Source of the DNA: Eubacteriales bacterium
Lineage (GTDB): Bacteria > Bacillota > Clostridia > Oscillospirales > Acutalibacteraceae
Direction of reading: 5' to 3'
NCBI GenBank assembly: GCA_029219885.1
Contig: JAQXUH010000061.1
Location: forward strand, 1 to 54,023
Length of the DNA: 54,023 bases
Shown here: positions 3,471-53,952 of the stretch, one piece after another
Layout: each line of letters begins with the position of its first letter
Position numbering within the stretch: position 1 is the stretch's first letter
Made by a program: the position numbers and the translations under genes
The notes under the pieces: generated by a model
What the model was told of the DNA's origin: nothing
What the model saw: the letters and a program-made list of their open reading frames with translations, nothing else
The model's database searches: none

Positions 3471-5287
3471 AAAGGAAAAGGACAGTAGTTCTTATGGGAA
3501 ATCCCAATGTGGGAAAGAGTACTGTTTTTAACGAAATTACAGGCTCTCATCAGCATACAGGCAATTGGACAGGAAAGACGGTTGACATAGCTTCGGGCAA
3601 ATACTATTACAAATATAACGACTACGAGCTGATAGATTTGCCCGGTACATACAGTCTTGTCACAATGAGCGAGGAAGAAAGAATTGCAAGAGATTTTTTG
3701 CTGAAAGAAAAATACGACTGCGTTGTTATGGTAGTTGACTCAACATCACTTTTAAGAAATCTCAACCTTGTTTATCAGGTTTTGGAGATAACGAACAAAA
3801 TTGTTCTTTTGCTTAATCTCAGCGACGAGGCAAAGAAAAAGAATATTGTAATTGACAGAGAAATTCTTTCAAATCTTTTAGGCATTCCCGTTGTGAAAGC
3901 TACGGCACGAAGCGGTAAGGGCATCAACGAACTGCTTGAAGAGGTGCATTTAATCTGCACAAGCTGTGAAGATTATTATACAAAAAAGGACGTTGACTTT
4001 GATGACATTTCAACAGAATTTCTTTTGGAAAAGGCGGAATTTGTCTGCGAAAAAGCAGTAACCTCAGCACCATCACGCAAAGAGGAAATTGAGAAAAAAG
4101 TTGACAAAATACTTCTCGGCAAATACACATCAATTCCTATTATGCTGCTGCTTTTCGGTATTGTCCTATGGATAACCATTGCAGGCTCTAACTATCCGTC
4201 AGATTTTCTCAGAGGAGTATTTGACAGCTTTGAGCTTTGGCTGGCGGAAAGTCTTGATAAAATCGGCGTACCGCAGACGATTATCAGCCTTGCGGTAAAC
4301 GGCGTACTCAGGGTGCTTTTGTGGGTTGTAGCGGTTATGCTGCCTCCTATGGCAATATTCTTCCCTCTTTTCGCAATTCTTGAAGATATCGGAATACTTC
4401 CACGATTTGCGTTTAATCTTGACAGACCATTTGAAAAATGCGGTGCCTGCGGTAAACAGGCACTGACTACCTGTATGGGTTTCGGCTGTAATGCGGTAGG
4501 CGTTACGGGATGCCGAATTATCGACTCTCCGAGAGAACGGCTTGTGGCAGTAATAACAAATTCTCTCACGCCTTGCAACGGCAGATTTCCGCTTTTGATA
4601 GCCGTTATATCAATGTTTTTCTGTGAAAACAGTTTCGGTGCGGCTTTAATTCTTCTGTGCTTTATTGTGGCGTCAATACTTGTAACCTTTGCCTGCTCTA
4701 AGGTGCTCACATCTACGGTGCTAAAAGGCGTAAACAGTTCTATGATGATTGAACTGCCCTCCTTTCGTATGCCGAGATTTTTAAAGCTTATCGGCGATAC
4801 TGTCAGGGAAAAGATTGTTTTTGTACTGCTAAGAGCTGTGGCAGTTGCCGCACCGGCAGGACTGATTATTTGGGCATTGGCAAACATCAAAGTCGGCGGT
4901 ACTTCTTTGCTTTGCAGTATTGCAGACGCACTTAACCCCATAGGTCATTTTATCGGTCTTGACGGCGTAATGCTTTTGGCGTTCATTCTTGGCTTTCCTG
5001 CCAACGAAATTGTCATACCTGTAGCACTTATGGCATATCTTTCAACAGGCGAAATGAGCGACTATTCCTCTCTTGAAAGCCTGAAATCAATACTGACCGA
5101 CAACGGCTGGACAGCGGTAACTGCCCTTTGTACCTGCATTTTTTCAATGTTTCACTTCCCTTGCTCCACAACGCTTATCACAATTTGGAAAGAAACAAAA
5201 AGCGTCAAGTGGACACTTCTTTCAATTCTGACTCCCTTAACCGCCGGAACTGCCCTTTGTGCGTTAATAAACTTGATTTTTGAGTAA
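3467..5287 (+). CDS. feoB: Ferrous iron transporter FeoB (GTPase-permease)
   Basis: This 606-residue protein begins at a GTG overlapping the feoA stop. The N-terminal G domain shows GNPNVGKS at 11-18 (G1), a DLPG motif (G3) and an NLSDE-type G4. The C-terminal half holds the two Gate segments and the Nucleos_tra2-like membrane core, including the conserved GACGKQAL and LTPCNGRFPLL motifs. FeoB imports Fe2+ across the cytoplasmic membrane. It is shorter than the roughly 770-residue E. coli protein, as is common in Clostridia. It would feed iron to enzymes such as the neighbouring Fe-dependent alcohol dehydrogenase, which is inference. Confidence 0.95.
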   Translation: MKRKRTVVLMGNPNVGKSTVFNEITGSHQHTGNWTGKTVDIASGKYYYKYNDYELIDLPGTYSLVTMSEEERIARDFLLKEKYDCVVMVVDSTSLLRNLNLVYQVLEITNKIVLLLNLSDEAKKKNIVIDREILSNLLGIPVVKATARSGKGINELLEEVHLICTSCEDYYTKKDVDFDDISTEFLLEKAEFVCEKAVTSAPSRKEEIEKKVDKILLGKYTSIPIMLLLFGIVLWITIAGSNYPSDFLRGVFDSFELWLAESLDKIGVPQTIISLAVNGVLRVLLWVVAVMLPPMAIFFPLFAILEDIGILPRFAFNLDRPFEKCGACGKQALTTCMGFGCNAVGVTGCRIIDSPRERLVAVITNSLTPCNGRFPLLIAVISMFFCENSFGAALILLCFIVASILVTFACSKVLTSTVLKGVNSSMMIELPSFRMPRFLKLIGDTVREKIVFVLLRAVAVAAPAGLIIWALANIKVGGTSLLCSIADALNPIGHFIGLDGVMLLAFILGFPANEIVIPVALMAYLSTGEMSDYSSLESLKSILTDNGWTAVTALCTCIFSMFHFPCSTTLITIWKETKSVKWTLLSILTPLTAGTALCALINLIFE

Positions 5288-5288
5288 C

Positions 5289-5322
5289 AAAAAACGCTTG
5301 CAAACAAATGCAAGCGTTTTTT
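5289..5322. terminator. Bidirectional intrinsic terminator between feoB and the fucosidase gene
   Basis: A 14-bp perfect stem (AAAAAACGCTTGCA and complement) with a 6-nt loop and A/T tracts on both sides. It closes feoAB on the plus strand and the long housekeeping-glycosidase operon on the minus strand. Confidence 0.9.
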
Positions 5323-5327
5323 CACTG

Positions 5328-6707
5328 CTATTCATAAAAGCCGATTGATTTAATTACAGGAGTGCTGCGTGACTGACGGATGACGAATCTGACTCCTGTG
5401 CACTTTTTGTGTTTCAGCGGAATTATTTTTTTCATTCCGATTACTGTGCCTTTATACACTCTTTTAAGCTTTCCGTTTTTCTTCATAAGATAAAGGTCAA
5501 AGGCTTCAACTCGCTGACTTTTGGTAATATCCTCGCTGATTACGGCATAGGACAGCTTTTTCTCGCTGTCAAACTTAAAGTCGATATAGCCGTTATCCTT
5601 AGTAAGCTCACCTAACTCCTGATAAATAACAGGCTTTTCCGTAATGGCTTTAATCTTTTTGCCTAAGGACTTAAGCACTATTGCGTCCTTTCGATGAATT
5701 ACGCCTTTATTTGTAGGCGGAACATTAAGGAGAAGTGTGCAATTATTGCCTACCGAGCCGAGATATAACTTAAAAAGTTTATTTGCAGATTTAACTGTAA
5801 TATTCTCGTTTCTTGAATAAAACCAGCCTTTGCGGATTGACACATCAACCTCAGCAGGATACCAGCAGAGATAGGCATTTTTGCTGAGAATTTTTCTCGA
5901 GCCTAAGTCTTCATCCGATGAAGTATATTTCTGCATTACGGCAGCCTGCGATTCGTCCTGCTGACTTTTTTCCATAGTCTTTTCTGCATCTTTGAGAGCA
6001 CAAGGAACAACACAGTATTCGCTCTTTCTCGTTTTACCGCCCTCATTGCCTACCCAACGGATATCAGGACCGCAGATTGCGATATTTGCCTTTGGCTGAA
6101 GCTTGTGGATAATGTCGTAATACCGCTGCCAATTGTATTCAAACTTCACGGCATTCGAGCCCTTTGCACCATCAAACCACACCTCGAAAATCTCGCCGTA
6201 ATTAGTGAGAAGCTCTGTAAGCTGATTGCAGAAATAATCGTCATATTCCGGTGTGCCGTAGCGTTTATCGTGCATATCCCAAGGTGAAAGATAAACACCA
6301 AAGTCAATTCCCTGCTTGTGGCACTCGTCGGAAACCATCTTGACAATATCGCCGTCAAAGCTCGTATTTCTAACGCAGAAATCGGTATATTTTGTGTCCC
6401 AAAGGCAAAAGCCGTCATGGTGCTTGCAGGTAAGAATTATGCCTGTTGCACCGCTTGCCTTGACAGTTTTTACCCACTGTGCAGCGTCAATTTTCTTAAT
6501 TGTGAAATCGTTGACAGTTTCAACACCTGCACCCCATTCACGAGCCGTTGCGGTATTCATTCCGAAGTGCATAAAGCAGTAAAACGGCTTTTCTGCCAGA
6601 CGAATTTGATTTTCACTCGGCAGTACGGAAATATACCTTTCAACCTCGTTACTGTTAAGGTCGGCACCGCCGTTATTGGTTGTCCAGTTTTTATCAAAAG
6701 TACTCAT
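5328..6707 (-). CDS. Alpha-L-fucosidase, glycoside hydrolase family 29
   Basis: A 459-residue intracellular-looking protein without a signal peptide. GH29 hallmarks are MHFGMNTATAREWG near residues 46-59, LTCKHHDGFCLWDT at 92-105 and the nucleophile in FEVWFDG (Asp179). A C-terminal beta-rich part follows. The enzyme releases alpha-linked L-fucose with retention of configuration. The general acid cannot be fixed by eye. It is the last gene of the long minus-strand run, 10 bp after the GH38 gene, and its Shine-Dalgarno is weak, so its translation may depend on the gene before it. Lack of an export signal implies action on imported fucosylated oligosaccharides. Confidence 0.92.
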   Translation of the reverse strand: MSTFDKNWTTNNGGADLNSNEVERYISVLPSENQIRLAEKPFYCFMHFGMNTATAREWGAGVETVNDFTIKKIDAAQWVKTVKASGATGIILTCKHHDGFCLWDTKYTDFCVRNTSFDGDIVKMVSDECHKQGIDFGVYLSPWDMHDKRYGTPEYDDYFCNQLTELLTNYGEIFEVWFDGAKGSNAVKFEYNWQRYYDIIHKLQPKANIAICGPDIRWVGNEGGKTRKSEYCVVPCALKDAEKTMEKSQQDESQAAVMQKYTSSDEDLGSRKILSKNAYLCWYPAEVDVSIRKGWFYSRNENITVKSANKLFKLYLGSVGNNCTLLLNVPPTNKGVIHRKDAIVLKSLGKKIKAITEKPVIYQELGELTKDNGYIDFKFDSEKKLSYAVISEDITKSQRVEAFDLYLMKKNGKLKRVYKGTVIGMKKIIPLKHKKCTGVRFVIRQSRSTPVIKSIGFYE

Positions 6708-6717
6708 AGCTTTACAC

Positions 6718-9700
6718 TCATACGCTTCTTTTAGCGTGTCTTGTTTCTACTCTTTTGCCGTGTTTTCCGTTATTGTTATTGCTGATAAAATTATCCTTGT
6801 CGCCAAGCTGCCAGATACATTTATTGTAAATGTACTGAATTTTCTGTATCGGTGAAAGTGTGAAGTCGAAAGGTCTTTCCTCCACCTCATCATATACAGG
6901 AGTTACAAGAGATGCATTTTCTGCTGTAACTGCACTTGCAGAAAGAATAACTATATCATCGTCATTTGGGAGAGTAACGCTTTTTGCTGATGATGTATCA
7001 AGCTCTGTAAGATAGAAATACATACCCTTTGCAACAGCGTCCTTGCCGTTTTGATGACTATGTGTAGCCTCAAAAGCAAGCTTGCCTTTTTTGATATACG
7101 CAGTTTCCTCAAGGTCGTAAAGGTCCCAACGTGCAAAATTCTCAAAGCAGGAATTAATCTGCTTTTTAACTTTCTTTTCACCTACAAGAAATTCTGCTGT
7201 TTTGTCACCCTTAAGTGACGCACAGAGAAGAACTGCTTTGTTTGCTCCGTCAGGCACTGTAAAGGTCTGTCCCTTTGCAGTTAAAGCGTTTTTGCCGTTT
7301 TTATTAATATCAAAGGTTACACCGTTTGAAGTGATTTTTTCAGGTGTAATCTCGTAAGGAGCAGTAAATTCGAAGTCACCTTTTTCGCCCTGCTTAGTAA
7401 TTATGCTCTTATCATACGGCAGGTCAATGGGCGTGCTGACTGCCTTATTTCCCTGTACTGATGCAGGTTTCAGCTTTAATGCAAAGCTCTTTATTTCGTA
7501 AGGCTCAAAGTCGCAAACAAGCTTGCCGTCCTTAACAACAGCCTCGCCCTTGTATTCCTCGCTGGCGTAAATCTCTCTTGCTGATTCGATGCCCTCGCCA
7601 AGTGTCAAGGCGAAGCCCTTTACAGCTTTTTTACCGCCTTCGCCGAGACGAACAACGATTTCGTCGCTGTCCTCTGCCTTTTTGATAGCCCTGATAATAA
7701 CATCATTAGTGGAAACAGAGCCAAAGGAATATTCTGTTTTGAGAGCACCCTGATGCTTTGTGCATACATAAGCGGTCATAGGAGTGATGAACTTTCTTGC
7801 CTCAAGCTGAGTAGCTTCGCCCACATTACCCTTATGGCTGTAAATCGCATAGGAATATCTGTTAAGTCCTAAGTCCATAAATGACTGCATTGAGTCAATG
7901 CGATAATTCTTTTTCGGTGTATGGAGGACTGTCATACGAAGTGTGTTGTCCTTAAATTTGTCCCAACCATACTTACATTCGCTGATAACGGAAATACCGA
8001 AATCACCGCTTTTATCGGTCAGGTCAACCCAATTCTGTGCAGGAACTTCAAAGAGCTTTTCGCTCATATTTTCACGCTCAATTGCACCGAGACCTAAGTC
8101 AAAGGTTGCCTTGTCATTTGATGCGGTAAAGGAGAATTTATTTTTAGCAAGTGTGCGAAGCGAACGCCACTCTATCTCCGAATAAACCTCAACAACATCA
8201 CAGCCGTCAGTTAATGCAATTATATTTGTAAATGTGCTTTTGCCGTCCTTTTGAATTACCTGAAAGGCAACTCTTGCCGGTCCCTGCTCAAGAACCGTAA
8301 CTGTTACAACATTAGGAATTCTGTCGGCTTCCTTATTAGCTTCCTTGAAATTCATTTCCCAAGCAGGCCAATCTTTAGAGCCGTTATATTTGAAAAGTCC
8401 AAGGCTGATAGGCTCCTTGAGAAGCTCCAGCTCGTCCTGTTCTTTATCAATAATAGATGTTATGTTGCCCTTTTGATTAAGTGTTACTATGTACTTTTGA
8501 TTTTCCATAACATTATCGGTGTTAATGGAAATCTCGCTTTTAACACAGCAAGGCTTATCACTCGGCCTGATATCATAAACTCTCGTGCCGAGACTCTTAA
8601 CATCGGCAACAAAAACTACTTCTAAGCCATCCTTTGAGTCAAACGAAATCTGGCTCTTAATCTCTTTGCCCTTTTCGTCATAAACGCGAACATACGGTGA
8701 CGGCACATCGGTAAGGCAAACAGTAACCGCACCTCGTCTGTCAGCCTCGATAGGGTTATAAACCATAACAGGAATACCTGAGCAGAAGTCGGTTTTCATC
8801 AGCTGAGAAACAGGAGCAACAGCACCCTCGATTTCATTTGCAAACTGATTCATTGACATTGCGTAGTCATTCCAGGAACGCCTGTATGCTCTTTGAACAG
8901 AAGTACCCGGAATATCATCGTGGAACTGATGAGCAATAAATCTCTTCCAGGAACGATTAAGGCTCTCCTGATTATAGTCGGCAGTACCGAGATATGAGGA
9001 CATAACGCTACCTCTCTCTGCCACATCAGCAAGCTCCTGGCATCTTCTGTTCCAGCGTTTGCCTACTGCCCTTGAGGTATAACCGCCAACAGCGTGATTC
9101 TGCATAACAAGCTCGTTTTTCCAAACAGGGAGCTTTGCTTTCTGCTCGTCGGTAAACTGCTCGTCAATATCGTGATAGATTTGGTCAGCAGACGCAGCCA
9201 CAACCTCAATGTCACTTGATGGATTTTTCTTGATTTCCTCTTCAACAAACTTAACGGTTGCCTCCTCAGGAGCACCGCCTCGGTCGCCGGTTCCGTGGAA
9301 AATGTAGGTCCAATCTAAATCGTACTTCTCATTTTCCTTAAACTTCTTCTGTACAAATTCCCAATCACGAAGCTTTTTAAGTGTGAAGTAATAATCGTGA
9401 GGATTGCAGGAGGCGTAAATCTCATTGCCATCCACGCCTTGCCACTTACCGATATCAAAAGGTATGCCGTAAGCACTGCCCCAAGCAAGCTTTTGAGTAG
9501 TAAAGCCCATAAGGTGTGCGTGGTTTGCAATACTCGGAAGTGCCCAACCAAAGCCGAAGCAGTCAGGCAAATAAATGTCAACACTTCTTTTGCCGAAAGT
9601 CTTGTCGAAATAAGAATTGCCGAAAAGAATATTCCTGAAAAGAGCCTCAGGAGACGGAATATTTACATCACCATTTTCAAATGATGAACCGCAGACATTC

Positions 9701-9939
9701 CATCTTCCCTGCTTAACATATTCTTTCATTTTTTCAAAAAGCTCAGGATAATATTCCTCCATAAGCTCATATCTGTATGTACCCTCAAAGGAGAAAGTGT
9801 AGGTTGGATATTTTTCAAAAAGCTTGAAATTATCCACAAGGGTATTGTAAATATATTTGCTTACGGTTTCTTCAAAATCCCAACTCCAAATGGTGTCAAG
9901 ATGAGCTGTTGCAACAGTATAAATTTTCTTTTTATTCAT
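6718..9939 (-). CDS. Alpha-mannosidase, glycoside hydrolase family 38
   Basis: This 1073-residue protein starts at the ATG at 9939, which has a GGAG Shine-Dalgarno at 9946-9949. The frame stays open further upstream, but there it overlaps the GH4 gene. The N-terminal catalytic barrel shows AHLDTIW with zinc ligands His13 and Asp15, PDCFGF with nucleophile Asp126, a HGTGDRGG segment and AHQFHDDIPGTS. The middle and C-terminal parts are the beta-sandwich domains typical of GH38. The enzyme is Zn2+-dependent and retaining and removes alpha-mannose. No signal peptide is seen. Together with GH4 and GH29 it suggests intracellular processing of host-type glycans. Confidence 0.92.
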   Translation of the reverse strand: MNKKKIYTVATAHLDTIWSWDFEETVSKYIYNTLVDNFKLFEKYPTYTFSFEGTYRYELMEEYYPELFEKMKEYVKQGRWNVCGSSFENGDVNIPSPEALFRNILFGNSYFDKTFGKRSVDIYLPDCFGFGWALPSIANHAHLMGFTTQKLAWGSAYGIPFDIGKWQGVDGNEIYASCNPHDYYFTLKKLRDWEFVQKKFKENEKYDLDWTYIFHGTGDRGGAPEEATVKFVEEEIKKNPSSDIEVVAASADQIYHDIDEQFTDEQKAKLPVWKNELVMQNHAVGGYTSRAVGKRWNRRCQELADVAERGSVMSSYLGTADYNQESLNRSWKRFIAHQFHDDIPGTSVQRAYRRSWNDYAMSMNQFANEIEGAVAPVSQLMKTDFCSGIPVMVYNPIEADRRGAVTVCLTDVPSPYVRVYDEKGKEIKSQISFDSKDGLEVVFVADVKSLGTRVYDIRPSDKPCCVKSEISINTDNVMENQKYIVTLNQKGNITSIIDKEQDELELLKEPISLGLFKYNGSKDWPAWEMNFKEANKEADRIPNVVTVTVLEQGPARVAFQVIQKDGKSTFTNIIALTDGCDVVEVYSEIEWRSLRTLAKNKFSFTASNDKATFDLGLGAIERENMSEKLFEVPAQNWVDLTDKSGDFGISVISECKYGWDKFKDNTLRMTVLHTPKKNYRIDSMQSFMDLGLNRYSYAIYSHKGNVGEATQLEARKFITPMTAYVCTKHQGALKTEYSFGSVSTNDVIIRAIKKAEDSDEIVVRLGEGGKKAVKGFALTLGEGIESAREIYASEEYKGEAVVKDGKLVCDFEPYEIKSFALKLKPASVQGNKAVSTPIDLPYDKSIITKQGEKGDFEFTAPYEITPEKITSNGVTFDINKNGKNALTAKGQTFTVPDGANKAVLLCASLKGDKTAEFLVGEKKVKKQINSCFENFARWDLYDLEETAYIKKGKLAFEATHSHQNGKDAVAKGMYFYLTELDTSSAKSVTLPNDDDIVILSASAVTAENASLVTPVYDEVEERPFDFTLSPIQKIQYIYNKCIWQLGDKDNFISNNNNGKHGKRVETRHAKRSV

Positions 9940-9958
9940 AGCAATCTCCAAAAAATTA

Positions 9959-11323
9959 TTATTTCCAGCCTTTTGAATATTCCTTGTTATGCTCGACATA
10001 CTCACTTACAAGCTCTTTAGCCAAGGAGTAGGAGTCAACAAGAGGATGAAGCGTCAACGCCTGAACTGCGGCGGAAATGCTCTTTTCCCTAATAGCCTTT
10101 GAGGCAAGACGCTCGTAATTCTTCACTCTGCGGATAAGCTCCAGATTCTGCTCATCAACCTTGCCTATCTTATGAGGAGTACAGCCGTTTGCGTCAACAT
10201 CGCAAGTAATCTCCACCACATCATCGTCAAGAAGTCCGTCAATGGAGCCCTCGTTTGGAATACACATAATCATTGTACCTGTTTTACCGCTTTGGGCAGT
10301 TTCAATAAACTTAAGTGCAACGCCTGCATATCCGCCGTCATCCTCCTCGTAAATATCAAAATGCCAAGGAGTTGTCCTTTTTTCACCGGTTTCGCTCGCC
10401 ATATAACTGCCTTCACGCATACCGTACCATTTGTTAAACACCTGAAGACAGCCGTCAAAATCGTTTTCAATATCCATTTTTGACAGCTCTTCGGTCATAT
10501 TTTTATTGATATCCCTAATCTGCTCACCTCTTGTTTGGGGAGCTTTAAGGATATTTTCCACCGCTTTTTCACGATAGTAGAAATAGTAGAGATACTCGTT
10601 TAATACTGCTTTTCTGTCACGGAGGAGGTCCTTTTCAAAATAACGCATATCAGTCTTTTTATACGCCTCGTCGTTTTCGATAAGGTCATTTGTAATCTCT
10701 TTTCCGTTAAGGGTAATGCTCTTAAAGTAGGAAAGATGATTAAGTCCGTACACCTCACCGCTGATATTGTCAGGACTTTCGCCATAGAGAAGTGCAAAGG
10801 AACGGAGCATACCTGACGGAGCGTCGCATATGCCGTATGTAAAATCATAGCCCATATCACGCAGAGTTTGAGAAACTACGCCGGCAGGATTTGTAAAGTT
10901 GAATACCTTTACATTCTTTTTAGCATACTTTTTAATAAGCTCGCAGTATTCGGCAAGAGCAGGCACGCTTCTCATAGCAAATGAAAAGCCTGCTGCACCT
11001 GTTGTTTCCTGACCGAGAACACCTTTATTAAGGGCAATTCTCTCGTCCTTTGCTCTCATATCGTCCTCTCCTACACGAATGGTAGTGATGACATAATCTG
11101 CATCTTTTACCGCCTCAACAGCATTTTCGGTAAGAGTGAATTTCATTTCAGGGCAAAGGAGCCTTGCCACGTGTGACGCCATACCGCCGTAAATTTTCAG
11201 CTTTTGGGAATTATTATCCATAAAGCAAAGCTCGTCGATTTTAAGTCTTTCGGCTTTTTGTGCAATACTCTTTGCAAGAAACATTGAGCGAACTCCACCG
11301 CCGCCGATTACAGTAATTTTCAT
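9959..11323 (-). CDS. NAD+/metal-dependent glycosidase, glycoside hydrolase family 4
   Basis: The 454-residue protein starts with an NAD-binding Rossmann fold (VIGGGGVRS at 5-13) and carries the family-4 metal ligands Cys166 (CDAP) and His196 (GLNHLSYF). GH4 enzymes use NAD+, a divalent metal and a redox-elimination mechanism to cleave alpha- or beta-glycosides, often 6-phosphorylated. The exact substrate cannot be deduced; the NH-L-S-Y-F context is closest to the phospho-beta-glucosidase-like branch. It follows leuS by 33 bp, has a GGAGAAAAGG Shine-Dalgarno, and precedes GH38 by 19 bp. Its frame and spacing place it in the same transcript as leuS. Confidence 0.85.
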   Translation of the reverse strand: MKITVIGGGGVRSMFLAKSIAQKAERLKIDELCFMDNNSQKLKIYGGMASHVARLLCPEMKFTLTENAVEAVKDADYVITTIRVGEDDMRAKDERIALNKGVLGQETTGAAGFSFAMRSVPALAEYCELIKKYAKKNVKVFNFTNPAGVVSQTLRDMGYDFTYGICDAPSGMLRSFALLYGESPDNISGEVYGLNHLSYFKSITLNGKEITNDLIENDEAYKKTDMRYFEKDLLRDRKAVLNEYLYYFYYREKAVENILKAPQTRGEQIRDINKNMTEELSKMDIENDFDGCLQVFNKWYGMREGSYMASETGEKRTTPWHFDIYEEDDGGYAGVALKFIETAQSGKTGTMIMCIPNEGSIDGLLDDDVVEITCDVDANGCTPHKIGKVDEQNLELIRRVKNYERLASKAIREKSISAAVQALTLHPLVDSYSLAKELVSEYVEHNKEYSKGWK

Positions 11324-46352: not shown

Positions 46353-49300
46353 TCACACCTCCAAAAGATTTTTAACAGCGTTTTTAGTGTTCGTGTCAAT
46401 TTCATTATCCGCTAAAACAAGTCCTGCTACTTCGTTGAAACTTCCTTTAAGCACATTTGAATAGAAATACATTCCGTCTATACAGACATAGGCTCTCGCC
46501 GTTATTTCTCTGCTATAATATGCTGCCGGAATATTTGAAATAACAAGATTGAACGATGTATTGTCGCCGTGGTCTACACGATTGTTTGCAACTATGCTTT
46601 TCACATTTATATCGTCAACAGTATTTATCGACAAATCTTCTTTGCCTTTTTGACTGTAGATAAAACCATATTCGATATCTGTTGCCAAATTTTCTATTTC
46701 GTCAATATTGTTCCAAGTAAAGCCAAAGCGTAAACCTGCAACAGAAGTACAAATAGACCTGCCCAAATCTGTTACATTTATAGGATTATCAACGCTTTCG
46801 TCTCTGTAATCGCTTGGGATATATTTAGTACCATTTTCTTTTGCCCATTCTGCTGCGTATGAACCTTCTGGGGCGACTATTGTTGTACTGCTGTAATCAT
46901 AATTACTACCGTTTATTAATTCTGTTTTTTCAGACAAATATAGTGTAGCGTTCCATTTTGTTGTTATGGTTGTTATGTACTGGATATTTGGCAAGTAAGC
47001 CCATTCTAATTTATGGCATAAGGAAAAACCATTCTGCAACCGGCGATTAGTATAAATTGCTTTAGGAGCATAAATATACTTTAACGACAATTCGTTAGGA
47101 TAATCTGGATTAGTTGCATCTGTAACCAAAATATCAGGCAAATAAATTGCATTTGGAAGATATAATTCCTCAAGAGCGAAACAATCATTAAACATACTTT
47201 CATATTGTGCTCGGGTGCCATCAACAAAATTCGGCATATTTATATGCTTAAGTTTTTTGCATCGATAAAACGTATGATCCGAAAGGAATGTTACATTTGG
47301 AATATCTATATACTCCGCCTGACTATATTGAAAGGCTCCTGAAAAATCTATCTTAGTTATCAGCGGCAGATAAATCTCTTTAAAGCAGGAATGGGCAAAT
47401 GCGTTTCCCTCCATAAGTTTTATTTTTGTAAGGTCATACTGACCGTCCTTAACAAACTCGGTGAGCTTTGTACAGTTTCCAAATGCGCTTTCGGCAACCT
47501 CCTCAAGTTCAGGAGCATAAAGCCATTCAAGAGAATAACAGTTGCTGAAAGCTCCGCTTGCCCAGTACATAAGCGGCAAATCGGCAGCAACCAGAGGCGT
47601 ATCAGCAAAGGTATCCTGAAAGTTATAAACATTCGGGAAATATGCATAAGTAAATGCTGTGCCTTTAAATACGCTGCCGTAAAGTTCCTCTACTGTTTCG
47701 TTGAAGTTTACCGATTGCAGCTTTCGGCATCCCTCAAAGCCTGAGCGGTTCACCAGCTTGACATTCGGCATATCCACATCCGTAAGAGAGGTGCAGTAAT
47801 AGAATACAAAAGTACCTATATTTTCTACACCCGGCGCTGTTATACTCGTCAGGCTTGATGCCTTGTTAAAGGCATAATTTCCAAGTTTTGTTATGCTTTC
47901 AGGCAAAACAACCGCCTTTATATCAGTAGAGTTAAAAGCACCTTTTGATACCGAAGTTGGTGTTATTCCGTTTATTGTATCAGGAACGATTATGCTTTTT
48001 TTATCCCCTGTATAACCATCTATAGCTCCTGCATCCGTTATGGAAAAATCGCCCTCGTCAGCGGGATAAATAACGGAATAACTCAGAGGAATATATCTGC
48101 TCTTGCCGTCCTTATTAATGGCTACTGCCACTAAATTCATAGCATCGGTTATTTCTATCGGCTCGGTATATTCTGTTCCGTTAGTTAATGTCGGCACGGT
48201 ATTATCAGTTGTATATACAATTTTATATTCTTCCGTTGCAGTCATCTCCAGGCTGAATTCACCGCTATATGAACCGCTTTCCCTGCTGACAGATGGTGAT
48301 GGTGCAAGCGACTCCTCAAACAGTGCTGAATAATTCAATATACCCGCACCGCACCACTCTACGCCAGAAGTGTTGTTCACGATAGGAAACGCTGCATCTT
48401 TTATTTTACTTTCCACCTGTGTAGGTGTGAGAGTATCGTCAAGCATCAGCACGGTAGCCGCCGCTGCGGATACAAATGGTGCTGCAAAGGAAGTACCGCT
48501 GTAACTGCTTGTATAACCGCCTCCTTTAGTATATGTAAAGATATTATCACCTGGAGCAGCAATATCTATAACTGTACCGAAATTGCTGTACGAACTTCTG
48601 GCATTTGACGAATTTGAGGCAGCAACTGTTATGACATTGCTAATGTTTGCCGGTGAATAATTTCCCGCATCTGTTGAATCATTACCTGCTGAAACGACAA
48701 CAACAATGCCCTTAGCAACAAGACTTTTTATCAACTCATTCTGCGTTTCCACGAAGGGATCTGCTTTATTTATTTCTCCGCCGAGAGATAAATTAATAAC
48801 ATCCGGAGCATCGTTCTCCGAAAGTATGTAATTGACAACAGCGATAATCTGCGTGGTGGCACATTTGCCGTTTGAGCCTAAAACCTTGTATGGCTTAATT
48901 TTTACATTATCCGTTGTGTTCTGTGCAATAATGCCTGCCACCATCGTGCCATGCCCCTGGTCATCCATACTGCCGTTTTCCTGACCTGTTGAACTGAAAT
49001 TTAAACCTGTTTCCACTATTCTATCTTTAAGTTCAGGATGTGTATTATCTATACCTGTATCTACAACACCCACCTTAATATCAGAAAGTTCTGCACCGGA
49101 AATTTTAATAGAGTTAAGCGTTTTGGCAGATTCTACTCTGTCATTGCCCCAACGCGTCGAAGTAGAGGAAGTTGAATTGACATCCTCACATGATATAACG
49201 CTATCATATTGTGCATTGTATCCGTCTGCAACAAAACTTTCCTTTGCTGCTGTGGCGGTCTCCTCGCTGTCATACTGCAAAACAGTGTATCCCATGGCGC

Positions 49301-49559
49301 AAAGGCTTTCGGTGGCGCCATAGTTATTTTTTACTTTGTCGGATGGTATTATGAGTCTGTCTTTGATAAACACCTGCGAACTCTCATCATTGTCAGCATA
49401 TTCTTCATCAGCGTCATATTCATCAATGAGTTCATTTACACAATCAGAAAAATACCCTGCACTGTTTTTGTTTGTCTGCGACGCAATCACGCTATAGCAG
49501 GGATAAATAGTTGACGTCAACATTACTAACGATAAAATCAAACTTATTGTTTTTTTCAT
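46353..49559 (-). CDS. Secreted subtilisin-like (S8) protease with BspA-type leucine-rich repeats
   Basis: A 1068-residue protein. The signal peptide spans ~1-27 and a propeptide ~30-135. The catalytic triad is Asp167 (VVDTGID), His203 (GHGTMVAG) and Ser357 (SGTSFAAP), with oxyanion Asn293 (SAGNDS). Residues ~425-500 resemble a chitobiase-type beta domain (YTTDNTVPTLTNGTEY). From ~510 to ~930 there are repeated BspA/LRR_5 units (ITKLGNYAFNKASSLTSI, VENIGTFVFYYCTSLTDV and others). A ~130-residue C-terminal domain of unknown type ends the protein. No cell-wall anchor is seen. The Shine-Dalgarno is AGGGGTG. It starts a three-gene coupled cassette and has a shared upstream element. Confidence 0.93.
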   Translation of the reverse strand: MKKTISLILSLVMLTSTIYPCYSVIASQTNKNSAGYFSDCVNELIDEYDADEEYADNDESSQVFIKDRLIIPSDKVKNNYGATESLCAMGYTVLQYDSEETATAAKESFVADGYNAQYDSVISCEDVNSTSSTSTRWGNDRVESAKTLNSIKISGAELSDIKVGVVDTGIDNTHPELKDRIVETGLNFSSTGQENGSMDDQGHGTMVAGIIAQNTTDNVKIKPYKVLGSNGKCATTQIIAVVNYILSENDAPDVINLSLGGEINKADPFVETQNELIKSLVAKGIVVVVSAGNDSTDAGNYSPANISNVITVAASNSSNARSSYSNFGTVIDIAAPGDNIFTYTKGGGYTSSYSGTSFAAPFVSAAAATVLMLDDTLTPTQVESKIKDAAFPIVNNTSGVEWCGAGILNYSALFEESLAPSPSVSRESGSYSGEFSLEMTATEEYKIVYTTDNTVPTLTNGTEYTEPIEITDAMNLVAVAINKDGKSRYIPLSYSVIYPADEGDFSITDAGAIDGYTGDKKSIIVPDTINGITPTSVSKGAFNSTDIKAVVLPESITKLGNYAFNKASSLTSITAPGVENIGTFVFYYCTSLTDVDMPNVKLVNRSGFEGCRKLQSVNFNETVEELYGSVFKGTAFTYAYFPNVYNFQDTFADTPLVAADLPLMYWASGAFSNCYSLEWLYAPELEEVAESAFGNCTKLTEFVKDGQYDLTKIKLMEGNAFAHSCFKEIYLPLITKIDFSGAFQYSQAEYIDIPNVTFLSDHTFYRCKKLKHINMPNFVDGTRAQYESMFNDCFALEELYLPNAIYLPDILVTDATNPDYPNELSLKYIYAPKAIYTNRRLQNGFSLCHKLEWAYLPNIQYITTITTKWNATLYLSEKTELINGSNYDYSSTTIVAPEGSYAAEWAKENGTKYIPSDYRDESVDNPINVTDLGRSICTSVAGLRFGFTWNNIDEIENLATDIEYGFIYSQKGKEDLSINTVDDINVKSIVANNRVDHGDNTSFNLVISNIPAAYYSREITARAYVCIDGMYFYSNVLKGSFNEVAGLVLADNEIDTNTKNAVKNLLEV

Positions 49560-49616: not shown

Positions 49617-49659
49617 AAAATGCAAAACTATGCTATAAAAATGACAAAAAAAGCAAAAA
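49617..49659 (-). repeat. Upstream element shared with the Rhs locus (copy A)
   Basis: This 43-bp stretch is identical to 53911-53952 apart from one A in a homopolymer. It ends 57 bp before the protease start codon. Its core (plus strand TGCAAAACTATGCTATAAAA) contains the direct repeat TATGC/ATGCA spaced within it and a TATAGC-like -10 on the minus strand, but no convincing sigma-A -35. A regulatory role is inferred from position. Confidence 0.7.
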
Positions 49660-49694: not shown

Positions 49695-50405
49695 TTAATC
49701 TAATTTAAACTCTTTATAATCATCAAGTCGAAGCAAAATCGGCTCGTTTCCCGCCGTAACGCCTGCGTCAATATCAATCCAGGTTTTGGTTTTTATAATT
49801 TTGCCGTTATATTCTTCTCCGTAACAGCAGGTAGGCGTATGACCGAAAACGGTTATGATATTTTCAAAATACTCGTCATCAAGCTTAGGTCTTGCCCACA
49901 GGAAATCGTCGGTTGAATAGTCGGACAATTTCTTATCCTTGCTGAAATTCTCAATACCGCCGTGAACGAGAAAATAATCTCTGTCACCTACTGTTACTGC
50001 GTCATAAAGCGGTAAGTCCTCAATATAGTCTATTATATCGGCGACAGTTTCCGGAGAATCTTTCATGAGCTTGTGCAAGGCTTTCAGCGTTACGTCACCG
50101 CCGTTGAACATATAGTCAGAAAGAGCTCCCACTTTATCCTCGCTCATAGAGTCAATGCTTTCATCTGTGATTTCATCAAAAACAAATAAGCAGGTTAAAA
50201 GCATTGCCTCGTGATTGCCGAGAATAAGCTGAATATTAGGCTGTTCCATCAGCCAGCAAAGCATTTCCACTCCGCCGTCGCCGTTTCGGTCAATGACGTC
50301 GCCGAGTATGTAAAGAAAATCTTTATCCGAAAACTGTGCCTTTTCAAGCAGCCTTTTAAATTTTTCAAGCGGATAACCATGAAGGTCGGATATTATATAT
50401 GTCAT
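49695..50405 (-). CDS. PPP-family metallophosphoesterase
   Basis: A 236-residue calcineurin-like phosphoesterase with the motif set of Ser/Thr protein phosphatases and symmetrical Ap4A hydrolases: SDLHG (Asp7, His9), GDVIDRNGD (Asp36, Asp39), GNHE (Asn64, His65) and HGG with FGHTP near the C-terminal half. It needs two metal ions. Substrate may be phosphoproteins or dinucleoside polyphosphates and cannot be decided. A GAGGA Shine-Dalgarno lies 8 nt upstream. It follows the WYL-encoding frame by 39 bp, so the original regulator and phosphatase were probably one operon. Confidence 0.88.
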   Translation of the reverse strand: MTYIISDLHGYPLEKFKRLLEKAQFSDKDFLYILGDVIDRNGDGGVEMLCWLMEQPNIQLILGNHEAMLLTCLFVFDEITDESIDSMSEDKVGALSDYMFNGGDVTLKALHKLMKDSPETVADIIDYIEDLPLYDAVTVGDRDYFLVHGGIENFSKDKKLSDYSTDDFLWARPKLDDEYFENIITVFGHTPTCCYGEEYNGKIIKTKTWIDIDAGVTAGNEPILLRLDDYKEFKLD

Positions 50406-50444: not shown

Positions 50445-52571
50445 TCAGTCATCATAAATTTTCAAGGCGTCAATCAAATCTTGCTTGCAGCCGTCGGCAA
50501 GGCTCTTTGGAGATATAACTTTCATTTGGCCTGCATACAGCTTTGCCCACATACGAATATCTGTTTCGTTTGCTTTTACCGTTGCAAGAATTTTTCCGTT
50601 TTCAAGCTCTTTGAAATTAACGTTTGCTTTAAAATAATCAAGCACATCGGAAATGAGATAATACGGCATTTCAATTTTTGCCGAAACCGACTTGCCTGTA
50701 AACATATAAATATGCTCATTCATATACTGTGCAACATCAAGACCTACCAAACCCTCAACCTGATTTTTCGGTTTACGCGGAGTGTCAAGGACTTCAATAT
50801 CTGTAATTCTGTCAAGACGATAATTGGATAAGCCGTCATATTTATCGTTATTGCAGATAAGGTAATACTTGCCGTTTGTTGTTGCCATCGTGTAAGGATT
50901 TATGATATATTCTCTCACATCGCCGTCGGAATTAAGGCGGTTGTGCAATTTTTTGTCAACGCCGTATTCGTCATAGGTATATTTTATTAAATCCTCAGTT
51001 TCGCCGTTTTCATCGGTATATAATATTGAGGACAACTGCCTGCCGTTAGTCCAGTTAAAATCGCAGTCGCCAAGCTTTATTAAATTTCCTTGTGAATCGT
51101 AGAGTAAAGTATCGTCATCCTGCTGAGTTACAGCGTCAAGCCAAATCTCATTCTCATACTCAAGCTCCATTTCCTCTGTGGTTTCAGGTGCTTGGGTAAT
51201 GTCACCGCGGGTAAACGGATATTGCTTAACTGTTTCAAGATTGCCGCGGCTGTCATACTTGTATGTAACAGTTGCACTTGCACTGCCAAGCTGATAATCT
51301 TCTCTTACAAGCTGACCTTTGCTGTCATATACATAATATGCAACAGAGCCTTCGTCAGGATGATATTCTACAAGTCTGCCAAGCTCGTCATAACTGTATG
51401 TGCTGACAATTTCACCTTTTGCAAAGGTGTTAGTCATTTTGCTGACATAGCCTTTTTCGTTGTACTCATAGGCTGTGCTTAAAACAGTTTTTTCTTCGCC
51501 GTCTGCGGTATTAGTAATTGATGTGGAAAGCAGTTCTCCTGATTCGTCATACTGATAATTGTATCTGCAGATTTCCTGGTCATCTTTTGTAAATACATCG
51601 CAGTTTTCATTAAATGTTGTATTTAATGTTGAATCCGCAAAACGCTGATTGAGATACTGTGAAGTGTCTTCCTCCGAGTTTTCGGTATCATTTTCAGTAT
51701 TTTCTTCACTTTCCTCGTAGGAATAATACAATCCTGTAACGCTGATTTCTCCGTCAACGATTTCAAAATTGCTGATAGTAACAGTATTGCCGTCATATTC
51801 AGTTATTTGATTATTGGTATAATCAATTTTGCTTGATAACACGAAATCGCTGTCATCGTCGGAATTTTCGGTATATGTGTATTCGTATTGTGTTTCTACA
51901 GGAGCAGTTTCGCTGTCTTTGTATTTTTGATATACAATCTGACTTAAGTCATTATATTCATAAAATACAGTTTGGTCATTACCGTAATCTATAGATTCAA
52001 GAAGATTTCCGTCATAGTTATATGTTGCATAAAGATTGCCTGAAATTTCAATATTTGCGACATTTCCTTTATTATCATAATTGAATTCGTAAATATCAAA
52101 AAACTCGGTTTTCTTTTCGCCTGTATCGTAATATTCGTAATCAGTTACAACATCAAGGCGGTTAATCTCTCTGTCAAGATTGCCTGTTTCAGAGTTGTAG
52201 TAATATCTCTGACCTGCATTTGAGTCGGAATATGTGTTTTCGGTAGGCAGTCCGTCTTTTGTGCTGTCGTAATCTTCAGGTGCAATTTCCTGTACTGTTC
52301 TGCCAAGGTCATCATACAGAGTTCTGGTACATTCTCCGTTTTCGTCGGAAAGGAGTGTTCTGCCTGCGGCGTCATAGACATATGATGATGTATCGCATTC
52401 CGTGGCAGTTGTAAGCACATTGCCGAACTCATCATAGGTATATGATGTAACGGTAGTTGTTGTTTCGCCGTCTTTTGTAACGGAATATGTTTCCTTAGTT
52501 ACATTTCCTCTGCTGTCATACCCGTACTCTGTAACAGTACCTGAGCTGTCCTGCTCTTTGGTAATTCTACC
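50445..52571 (-). pseudogene. 5'-truncated Rhs/YD-repeat stalk fused in frame to a WYL regulator domain
   Basis: The frame is open from a TAA at 52572-52574 to the stop at 50445, about 708 codons, with no ATG near its beginning; the first usable start is a GTG at 52418. From 52571 to about 50960 it encodes YD repeats (YDAAGRT, YNYDGNLLESIDYGND, YSYDELGRLVEYH, YKYDSRGNLETV). From about 50960 it encodes a WYL-domain regulator C terminus: DKKLHNR, EYIINPYTMATTNGKYYLIC, NYRLDRITDIEVLDTP and MWAKLYAG. The helix-turn-helix part of the regulator is gone. The junction falls at TYDEYGVDKK and shows no stop or frameshift. Whether it is expressed is unknown. Confidence 0.8.
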
Positions 52572-52591
52572 TTATGATGTCATATAAAAGA

Positions 52592-53002
52592 CTATTTATA
52601 TTCGATATGGAAACCGTTTCCTACAAACTCAATATGTTTGCATTTTACTGTTAAGTAATTCAGTTCTTCGTTATGTTTCGTAATGTATTGAGTTAAAAGA
52701 TGAAGTTCGTATCTGCCATTATCTAATTTATATAATTCCTCTGCAATACACCAAGCGTTTTTCAGCTTGCAATTTTCCAATACAGTATAATTATCAATGA
52801 CAATTTTGTTAATATTTGACATACTTCCTGAATTATCAAGCAAAAGTATATGTTTTCCTTGAGAACGAGCATCAGGAAAATCATTTGAAATTATTTGACA
52901 ATCGTGCAGATTTATCAAATCATTGTCGATATAATTTTTATCAGTAATTTGATTATGCTTGGTACATCCTGAACGATACCACTCTTTTGTATAAATTTTC
53001 AT
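52592..53002 (-). CDS. Putative immunity protein for the Rhs tip toxin
   Basis: A 136-residue protein without signal peptide or membrane helices, beginning MKIYTKEWYRSG, a start seen in a family of small proteins found beside polymorphic toxins (identification tentative). It begins 9 bp after the Rhs tip gene with an AGAGG Shine-Dalgarno next to that stop codon, so the two are coupled. Its base composition is visibly more AT-rich than the housekeeping genes, consistent with horizontal transfer. Immunity function is inferred from position: Rhs effectors are normally followed by a cognate immunity gene. Confidence 0.6.
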   Translation of the reverse strand: MKIYTKEWYRSGCTKHNQITDKNYIDNDLINLHDCQIISNDFPDARSQGKHILLLDNSGSMSNINKIVIDNYTVLENCKLKNAWCIAEELYKLDNGRYELHLLTQYITKHNEELNYLTVKCKHIEFVGNGFHIEYK

Positions 53003-53011
53003 AATAACCTC

Positions 53012-53875
53012 TTATAACAAAAACCAAGCGTGACTTTTGTATATTCTTTTGTTAACATGATAATGATAATAATATCCTATAGTGTTTTCCTTATTTTTGT
53101 CAATTTCTGGTCCTACTGGTACTTTGTTGTTGTATGAACTTTTAGCAAGAACATAAGCTTTATTTTGTGATGAACAAAACACATTTTTATTCTTTTTCAT
53201 GCGATTTTTAGCTTCTTCTTTGCTAATACCAGAACCTATTCTGACAAAAGAAGATGTACCCGTACTATCAATCCAAGCATTCCAATAATTATATCCCCTA
53301 TCTTCTTTAGTTTTTGTTTTAATTTCTGCATCTGCCGTTACAACAACTATTGTATCAGAAATATTTTTAGCCTTAGATTTTGCCTGCTTTTTTAATTTAT
53401 TATAAGTTGAATTAATTGTCGCAGATAGTAAAGATATAATCGCTTTTTTGCTTAATGAATAGTTATTACCAAATGAACGAACTTGAGAAATAGCGGAAGA
53501 ATAATCAGAATTATTCGCAACACTAGATGTCGTTAAACTAATTCCTACTTCTGCTATTACTGCGATAATTATAGCAATAGCAATTGCTGTTGTTATTGCA
53601 GAAGCTACAGCTGCCGATAAAGAATGTCCATCTCTATCCGCAAAATTTACAGCATTATTATTACAGTATGCAACAGCATTACATCCAATACTTGTATTTT
53701 TTGATTCAATCAAAAAACAATAGGTATCCGCATTTATAAACCTACAAATATCCGGGTCATAGTAACGGGACTGGAGGTAATAATAACCTGTTTCGGTATC
53801 GTAGTAATAACCGCGATAACGAAGTGGGTTAGCGCTAGCAAGCTGAACTTGTTCAGGGTTTTCATTATTTGTTAA
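53012..53875 (-). pseudogene. Orphan Rhs tip: 3' part of Rhs core plus C-terminal toxin domain
   Basis: The frame runs from just after a TAA (53876-53878) to the stop at 53012, 287 codons, and contains no ATG near its beginning; the first possible start is a TTG at 53713. The beginning carries the end of an Rhs core (NPLRYRGYYYDTETGYYYLQ, SRYYDPDICRFINAD, and AVNFADRDG). After this conserved DG, ~207 residues of non-core tip follow: a hydrophobic stretch (AITTAIAIAIIIAVIAEVG), a polar part, then VGPEIDKNKENT, YYYHYHVN and SHAWF near the end. The His-rich end may be a toxin active site (inference). The main core and any secretion signal are missing. Confidence 0.75.
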
Positions 53876-53910: not shown

Positions 53911-53952
53911 AAAATGCAAAACTATGCTATAAAAATGACAAAAAAGCAAAAA
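53911..53952 (-). repeat. Upstream element shared with the S8 protease gene (copy B)
   Basis: This 42-bp element matches 49617-49659 with a single A missing. It lies 36 bp upstream of the open part of the Rhs tip frame. Between the two is a near-palindrome TTGAGAAA-ac-TTTTTCAA (53891-53908). No gene with a proper start follows it, so the promoter of a lost gene may remain here. Confidence 0.7.

Follow-up and report, generated by a model that had tools for sequence, protein, structure and literature searches.

An in-frame junction of a headless Rhs fragment with half of a WYL regulator gene, probably a dead recombination product, in a metagenome-assembled Eubacteriales genome

The window, that is, the whole stretch of DNA analysed (54,023 bp), is the complete contig C61 of a metagenome-assembled genome (MAG) of 1.89 Mb in 105 contigs, which is 85.8% complete and 3.8% contaminated. 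The contig end (54023) adjoins an Rhs block that reads, on the minus strand, 27-bp repeat, Rhs cassette, DUF4085-like gene, fused frame and calcineurin-like phosphoesterase (Table 1). The repeat has four exact copies in the genome and none with one or two mismatches, and is present (with at most one mismatch) in three of 80 genomes of the genus, this one included. The tip of the orphan cassette has a 34%-identical counterpart downstream of an Rhs gene in genome G034 (locus L121). The DUF4085-like gene lies 20 bp from the YD fragment and sits where an Rhs immunity gene would, a position that suggests an immunity role; the first bases of this gene (52963-53007) match positions 1011-1055 of locus L130 (G000:C4) at 43 of 45 bases, probably a remnant of a second copy of the gene. 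The phosphatase gene has GAGG 10 nt before its ATG. The S8 protease gene beyond it (46353-49559) encodes a large subtilase that carries BspA-type leucine-rich repeats together with a chitobiase C-terminal-like domain.

Table 1. Features of the Rhs block and its surroundings, in minus-strand order.
Feature	Positions	Strand	Remarks
27-bp exact repeat TTTTGTCATTTTTATAGCATAGTTTTG, copy 1	53917..53943	-	Upstream of orphan Rhs cassette
Headless orphan Rhs cassette	53012..53872	-	Rhs core TIGR03696 (E 5.8e-18) and C-terminal tip
DUF4085-like gene, 136 aa	52592..53002	-	PF13315, E 5.2e-6, 26.7 bits against a cut-off of 24.1
Headless Rhs fragment, 531 codons of YD-repeats, without N-terminal half	50979..52571	-	TAA (52572-52574) directly upstream
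Crossover interval, at most 19 nt, within the codons of (Y)TYDEYG	50961..50979	-	Placed from relatives of both halves
C-terminal half of WYL regulator (WYL and weak WCX-like region), N-terminal half missing	50445..50960	-	
Calcineurin-like metallophosphoesterase	49695..50405	-	PF00149, E 2.7e-12; about 40 bp downstream of fused frame
27-bp exact repeat TTTTGTCATTTTTATAGCATAGTTTTG, copy 2	49623..49649	-	Upstream of S8 protease gene

The fused frame (52571-50445, minus strand) translates as 708 codons with no internal stop and joins two protein families, RHS_repeat (PF05593, E 8.9e-19, in five stretches) and WYL (PF13280, E 2.1e-8, 34.4 bits against a cut-off of 21.8, at residues 549-594). The original prediction, made from the letters alone, had described a single frame running from Rhs repeats into a WYL domain, and that description holds, with both families above their Pfam cut-offs. 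The upstream limit given there for the frame, 52571, is set solely by the TAA that directly precedes it. When the halves were scanned apart, the YD-repeat portion (480 aa, counted from the GTG at 52418) matched RHS_repeat and not WYL, and the C-terminal 181 aa matched WYL (E 4.5e-9, 36.6 bits against 21.8) and not RHS_repeat, so that the predicted WYL identity of this part is confirmed by a separate profile search. A false WYL match was ruled out by these separate scans and by relatives at 34 loci in GTDB, and a chance open frame by the fact that both families score above cut-off and that each side of the switch has homologues. For the WCX region (PF25583) the window scores 12.4-13.8 bits, where the cut-off is 23.9; among ten relatives (set A1), all of which match PF13280, nine match WCX at E up to 1, the best at 5.8e-6.

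The point at which one family gives way to the other was located by comparison with relatives of each half. YD relatives occur in 25 of the 80 genus genomes (own included); of eight stretches taken, seven were read as long Rhs frames of 1205-1432 aa that continue on both sides (the 1205-aa frame, in L127, is cut by the fetched stretch), and the eighth, from G031, is a fragment. Relatives of the WYL half were found at the 34 GTDB loci and in 67 of the 80 genus genomes (E 0.001 or better), the latter being mostly paralogues near 30% identity; 46 loci were reduced to 43 with matches at E 1e-25 or better and to 39 distinct sequences for alignment, by exclusion of weaker matches and four duplicates. 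All seven Rhs genes read Y-x-Y-D-x-x-G-I-R-T-S-K and continue into the Rhs core, and the WYL relatives mostly read F-x-Y-x-x-Y-x-x-D-K. The Tyr encoded at 50981-50979 (K-Y-T) is Tyr in all seven Rhs relatives and Phe in 35 of the 39 WYL relatives, which have a Tyr two places on from that position (37/39) and the Tyr of E-Y-G (38/39); the residue after the Gly is Val in the window (50960-50958) and Ile in all seven Rhs relatives. Judged by these residues of the relatives, the Tyr fits the Rhs side and the Val the WYL side, which bounds the crossover to the interval in Table 1, the limit of 19 bases assuming that the lost partner sequences had family-typical residues. The switch that the original prediction placed within TYDEYG-VDKK, at about 50960, thereby lies close to the interval found, and the likeness of the two family strings supports its idea of microhomology. 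On the WYL side, at least 150 open codons precede the switch point in 41 of the 43 loci with matches; the other two are L012, which is cut by a contig end, and L023, which has a C-half-only frame.

The fusion was found in no other genome searched, whether of the genus (80) or of the family (300), none of these being of the same species. Among the WYL matches listed (67 of the 80 genus genomes at E 0.001 or better, 20 of the 300 family genomes at E 1e-25 or better), only the frame of the window exceeds 502 aa; the 502-aa frame (G011, L087) matches the regulator N-half and has no YD match, and a 533-aa frame, stop to stop, at GTDB locus L027 has a regulator-like N-half. A recurrent Rhs-WYL domain architecture is not favoured by these matches. 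The viral_contigs collection held neither the exact junction nor a pattern match for the WYL half, and in a literature search 'WYL domain' and 'Rhs' co-occurred in one paper, within its reference list. Rhs sequence near the regulator was seen in two of the 46 WYL loci (many of them cut by contig ends), L034 and L082, both from G031, in which the start of a YD-core fragment is about 1.1 kb away from that of the regulator and the fragment points away from it. L125 (G012:C7) has, at 4491-5972 and 9566-10033, an Rhs gene and a distantly related WYL paralogue (29% identity) in the same orientation, separated by about 3.6 kb.

A fusion seen once, beside a contig end, in an incomplete MAG of 105 contigs with 3.8% contamination and within a class of loci that is repetitive, might be an assembly or binning chimera, in which the assembler joined an Rhs fragment and a regulator half at their shared string. 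This is the main rival explanation, and is judged unlikely. Common assemblers start from 21-mers, and parents with family-typical residues could share at most 19 identical bases; the sequence contains no N at this point, the MAG has only one long copy of the Rhs part, and G031 has an Rhs orphan as a close neighbour of the intact regulator. The junction is probably a true genomic one.

The first ATG of the fused frame is at 51437, the start listed by the ORF tool (GTG 52418) falls inside the YD-repeats, and the first ATG past the switch (50888) is inside the WYL match. No Shine-Dalgarno motif (any of seven motifs, 4-12 nt upstream of the start) precedes any of the 22 in-frame ATG, GTG, TTG or CTG codons, compared with 16 positives, including the phosphatase gene and the DUF4085-like gene, among 24 other genes of the window that were chosen by hand from the ORF list with the first ATG taken as the start. 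Because only 16 of the 24 controls pass, and because the start of the S8 protease gene fails, this test is supportive of non-translation and does not decide it; a promoter scan, with 26 sites against 18.2 (sd 5.0) expected, carries no weight either way. The Rhs relative at L121 has about 500 residues or more before its YD part and a core after it, neither of which is present in the fused frame: no N-terminal export part precedes the YD-repeats, the frame being closed upstream by its TAA, and the Rhs core TIGR03696 is absent from the frame (matches at E up to 1), so that none stands before the WYL half. With no Rhs head, no core and no Shine-Dalgarno start, translation of the whole fused frame as one protein is most unlikely.

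The other outcome considered in the original prediction, a new Rhs tip, fares badly by the same features. An exported, functional Rhs-WYL hybrid with the WYL half at its tip has in its favour the single continuous frame and a study of Salmonella, in which a headless orphan tip can recombine onto a full-length rhs gene and then be expressed (PMC3967940), but the lack of the Rhs N-terminal half, of a Shine-Dalgarno start and of a core before the WYL half, the lack of any other Rhs repeat found in the MAG, and the failure to find such a hybrid in the other genomes searched make it the least credible of the explanations weighed here.

The YD fragment is instead typical of an orphan, being a displaced part of an rhs gene that lacks initiation signals and stands beside genes like those of rhs-CT and immunity modules. 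In these respects it resembles the orphan rhs-CT fragments of Salmonella LT2, which are displaced Rhs fragments beside toxin- or immunity-like genes, usually lack translation initiation signals and have junctions made by recombination (PMC3967940). Unlike those orphans, which lie downstream of a main rhs gene (PMC3967940), the YD fragment of the window lacks a core and tip of its own and runs into half of a regulator, and no main rhs gene was found in the MAG as assembled (85.8% complete, with the contig ending at 54023).

The regulator half has equally lost its partner. The N-terminal half of the WYL relatives is presumably, as is typical of the family, a DNA-binding helix-turn-helix, to which ten relatives give weak Pfam matches only (HTH_12 at E 0.059, HTH_11 at E 0.32); it is absent from the frame of the window, where YD-repeats take its place, and has no close match in the MAG, only paralogues of 26-30% identity on contigs C80 and C83. 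In three genus genomes (G061, G073 and G031), the same phosphatase is preceded, at a distance of 1.4-3.9 kb, by an intact regulator in the same orientation, with genes between. In G061, whose WYL half is 72% identical to that of the window, the order is regulator, DUF2779 protein (PF11074, E 7.6e-48, with a weak Cas4-like match), PD-(D/E)XK-like protein (below its Pfam cut-off), retron-type reverse transcriptase (Ec107-like, E 5.2e-116) and phosphatase; the intervening gene in G073 encodes a 433-aa protein with a weak UDG match, and G031 has a GH18 protein and a 145-aa ORF. These genomes support the predicted loss of a regulator upstream of the phosphatase gene. The intact pair expected in relatives is thus found in three genomes, but in four others it is arranged otherwise: the phosphatase is upstream of the regulator in G019 and G020, and the two are on different contigs in G002 and G029, so the two do not form a fixed operon. 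With matches required to reach E 1e-40 or better, 12 of the 80 genus genomes match the WYL half, 13 the phosphatase and eight both (own included), a co-occurrence with a Fisher p of 1.7e-5 for a threshold chosen afterwards and relatedness left uncorrected.

A DUF2779 gene lies within 3 kb of the regulator in eight of the 46 loci (L077, L004, L079, L080, L083, L085, L016 and L033), of which L077 (G061) and L004 are judged to be the same record, L016 is a weak match (30%) and L033 has its DUF2779 gene upstream. Some of these loci also carry PD-(D/E)XK, Mrr-like or retron reverse transcriptase neighbours, which gives sites with the WYL regulator and DUF2779 a defence-like appearance. The relatives resemble BrxR and CapW in having WYL after an N-terminal half and, in some cases, in standing beside retron reverse transcriptase, PD-(D/E)XK or DUF2779 genes; the window, in contrast, keeps the WYL half only, with none of those defence-like neighbours at the site. 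BrxR (PMC9122601) and a second WYL regulator, presumably CapW (PMC9122588), are reported to be defence-associated. The WYL half is not placed in either family because its matches to PDB sequences are marginal (best E 0.039).

The original prediction spoke of a decaying product, and this is apt for the locus, which is a graveyard, but less so for the WYL half, which has decayed little. That half departs from its relatives at three of the 31 columns conserved in at least 90% of them, and the nearest relative, L004, departs at the same three, at one of them with the same residue; dN/dS against L004 is 0.07, a rough value because dS is near saturation (pS 0.73). Selection therefore acted on the WYL half for most of its history, perhaps with some recent relaxation, whether because the event is recent or because the half is still used. 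A relative-rate count leans towards a faster window branch: with all nine outgroups, which are not independent, the window branch has more changes than that of G061 (13:9 up to 24:5; chi-square over 3.84 with three of the nine), and a second alignment gives 17:10, 17:9 and 15:9 in the same direction, whereas the phosphatase leans the opposite way (12:30, 14:32 and 19:24). The count is in keeping with some relaxation; it speaks against intact function and also against an extremely recent event. Since the WYL half shows little decay, the fusion event looks recent, and probably is.

The same conservation could mean that the WYL half is still made, from an internal start, as a stand-alone ligand-binding protein kept by selection. 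The 708 codons are open without stop or frameshift, no departure at a conserved column is absent from the nearest relative, dN/dS is low, and at L023, from another genus, there is also a C-half-only frame of 184 aa; accessory WYL proteins not described as regulators, such as RspWYL1 of type VI-D CRISPR systems, have been reported (PMC6547453). This explanation is nevertheless improbable, and more so than an assembly artefact: no Shine-Dalgarno motif precedes any internal in-frame start, the ATG at 50888 falls within the WYL match, the conservation is accounted for just as well by a recent event, and the window branch tends to be the faster one in the relative-rate count. The frame at L023 (5953-6504, Oceanobacillus alkalisoli) has no in-frame N-half, and a second WYL match lies at 1669-2142 of the same locus.

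The reading that we hold to be likely is that a headless YD fragment was joined to the middle of a WYL regulator gene by illegitimate recombination in an Rhs orphan graveyard, and that the result is most likely a dead product. Recombination would have taken place within at most about 19 bases of microhomology, and would have removed or displaced the Rhs core and tip of the YD fragment together with the N-terminal, presumably DNA-binding, half of the regulator, its start and its promoter, so that the regulator would have been lost. Both parents encode a similar Y-x-x-x-G string there in the same phase, which is why the join keeps the frame. The junction of the window could have arisen from a same-strand arrangement by deletion, or from an arrangement like that of G031 by inversion between microhomologies.

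The inversion route allows a further reading, in which an Rhs orphan and a defence-associated WYL regulator carry inverted microhomologies, an inversion took place between these, and the junction of the window is one of its two sides; Rhs rearrangement would thus switch the regulator off. The other side would then be the regulator N-terminal half joined to an Rhs core and tip, G031 would resemble the unswitched state and, if the inversion were reversible, Rhs rearrangement would switch the defence regulator on again. The reciprocal half of the junction was not found in the MAG, which is incomplete, and we regard this reading as very doubtful, scarcely better placed than a functional hybrid.

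If the junction is the dead product that we favour, Rhs graveyards can break neighbouring genes, of which this locus would be a clear example, and the locus carries a warning that one cannot take a long open frame across two families as evidence that a hybrid protein exists. A more useful by-product of the comparison is a set of defence-like sites with a changing gene content, at which a WYL regulator and a conserved phosphatase are accompanied by DUF2779, PD-(D/E)XK, Mrr-like or retron genes. In four other genomes (G074, G029, G051 and G002) the same phosphatase is preceded by a 3' remnant of a DUF2779 gene; genes at this site thus often decay, and the window fits the pattern. On visual inspection, G074 has a short N-terminal DUF2779 piece directly in front of the remnant, and G029 has one about 200 bp ahead of it. 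The start residues of three of the four 3' remnants (L147, L148, L149 and L151) lie close together (446-457), which may mark a recurrent breakpoint. At L146 (G076, 8224-9498), a 424-aa ORF with YDENGN-type strings precedes the closest relative of the phosphatase.
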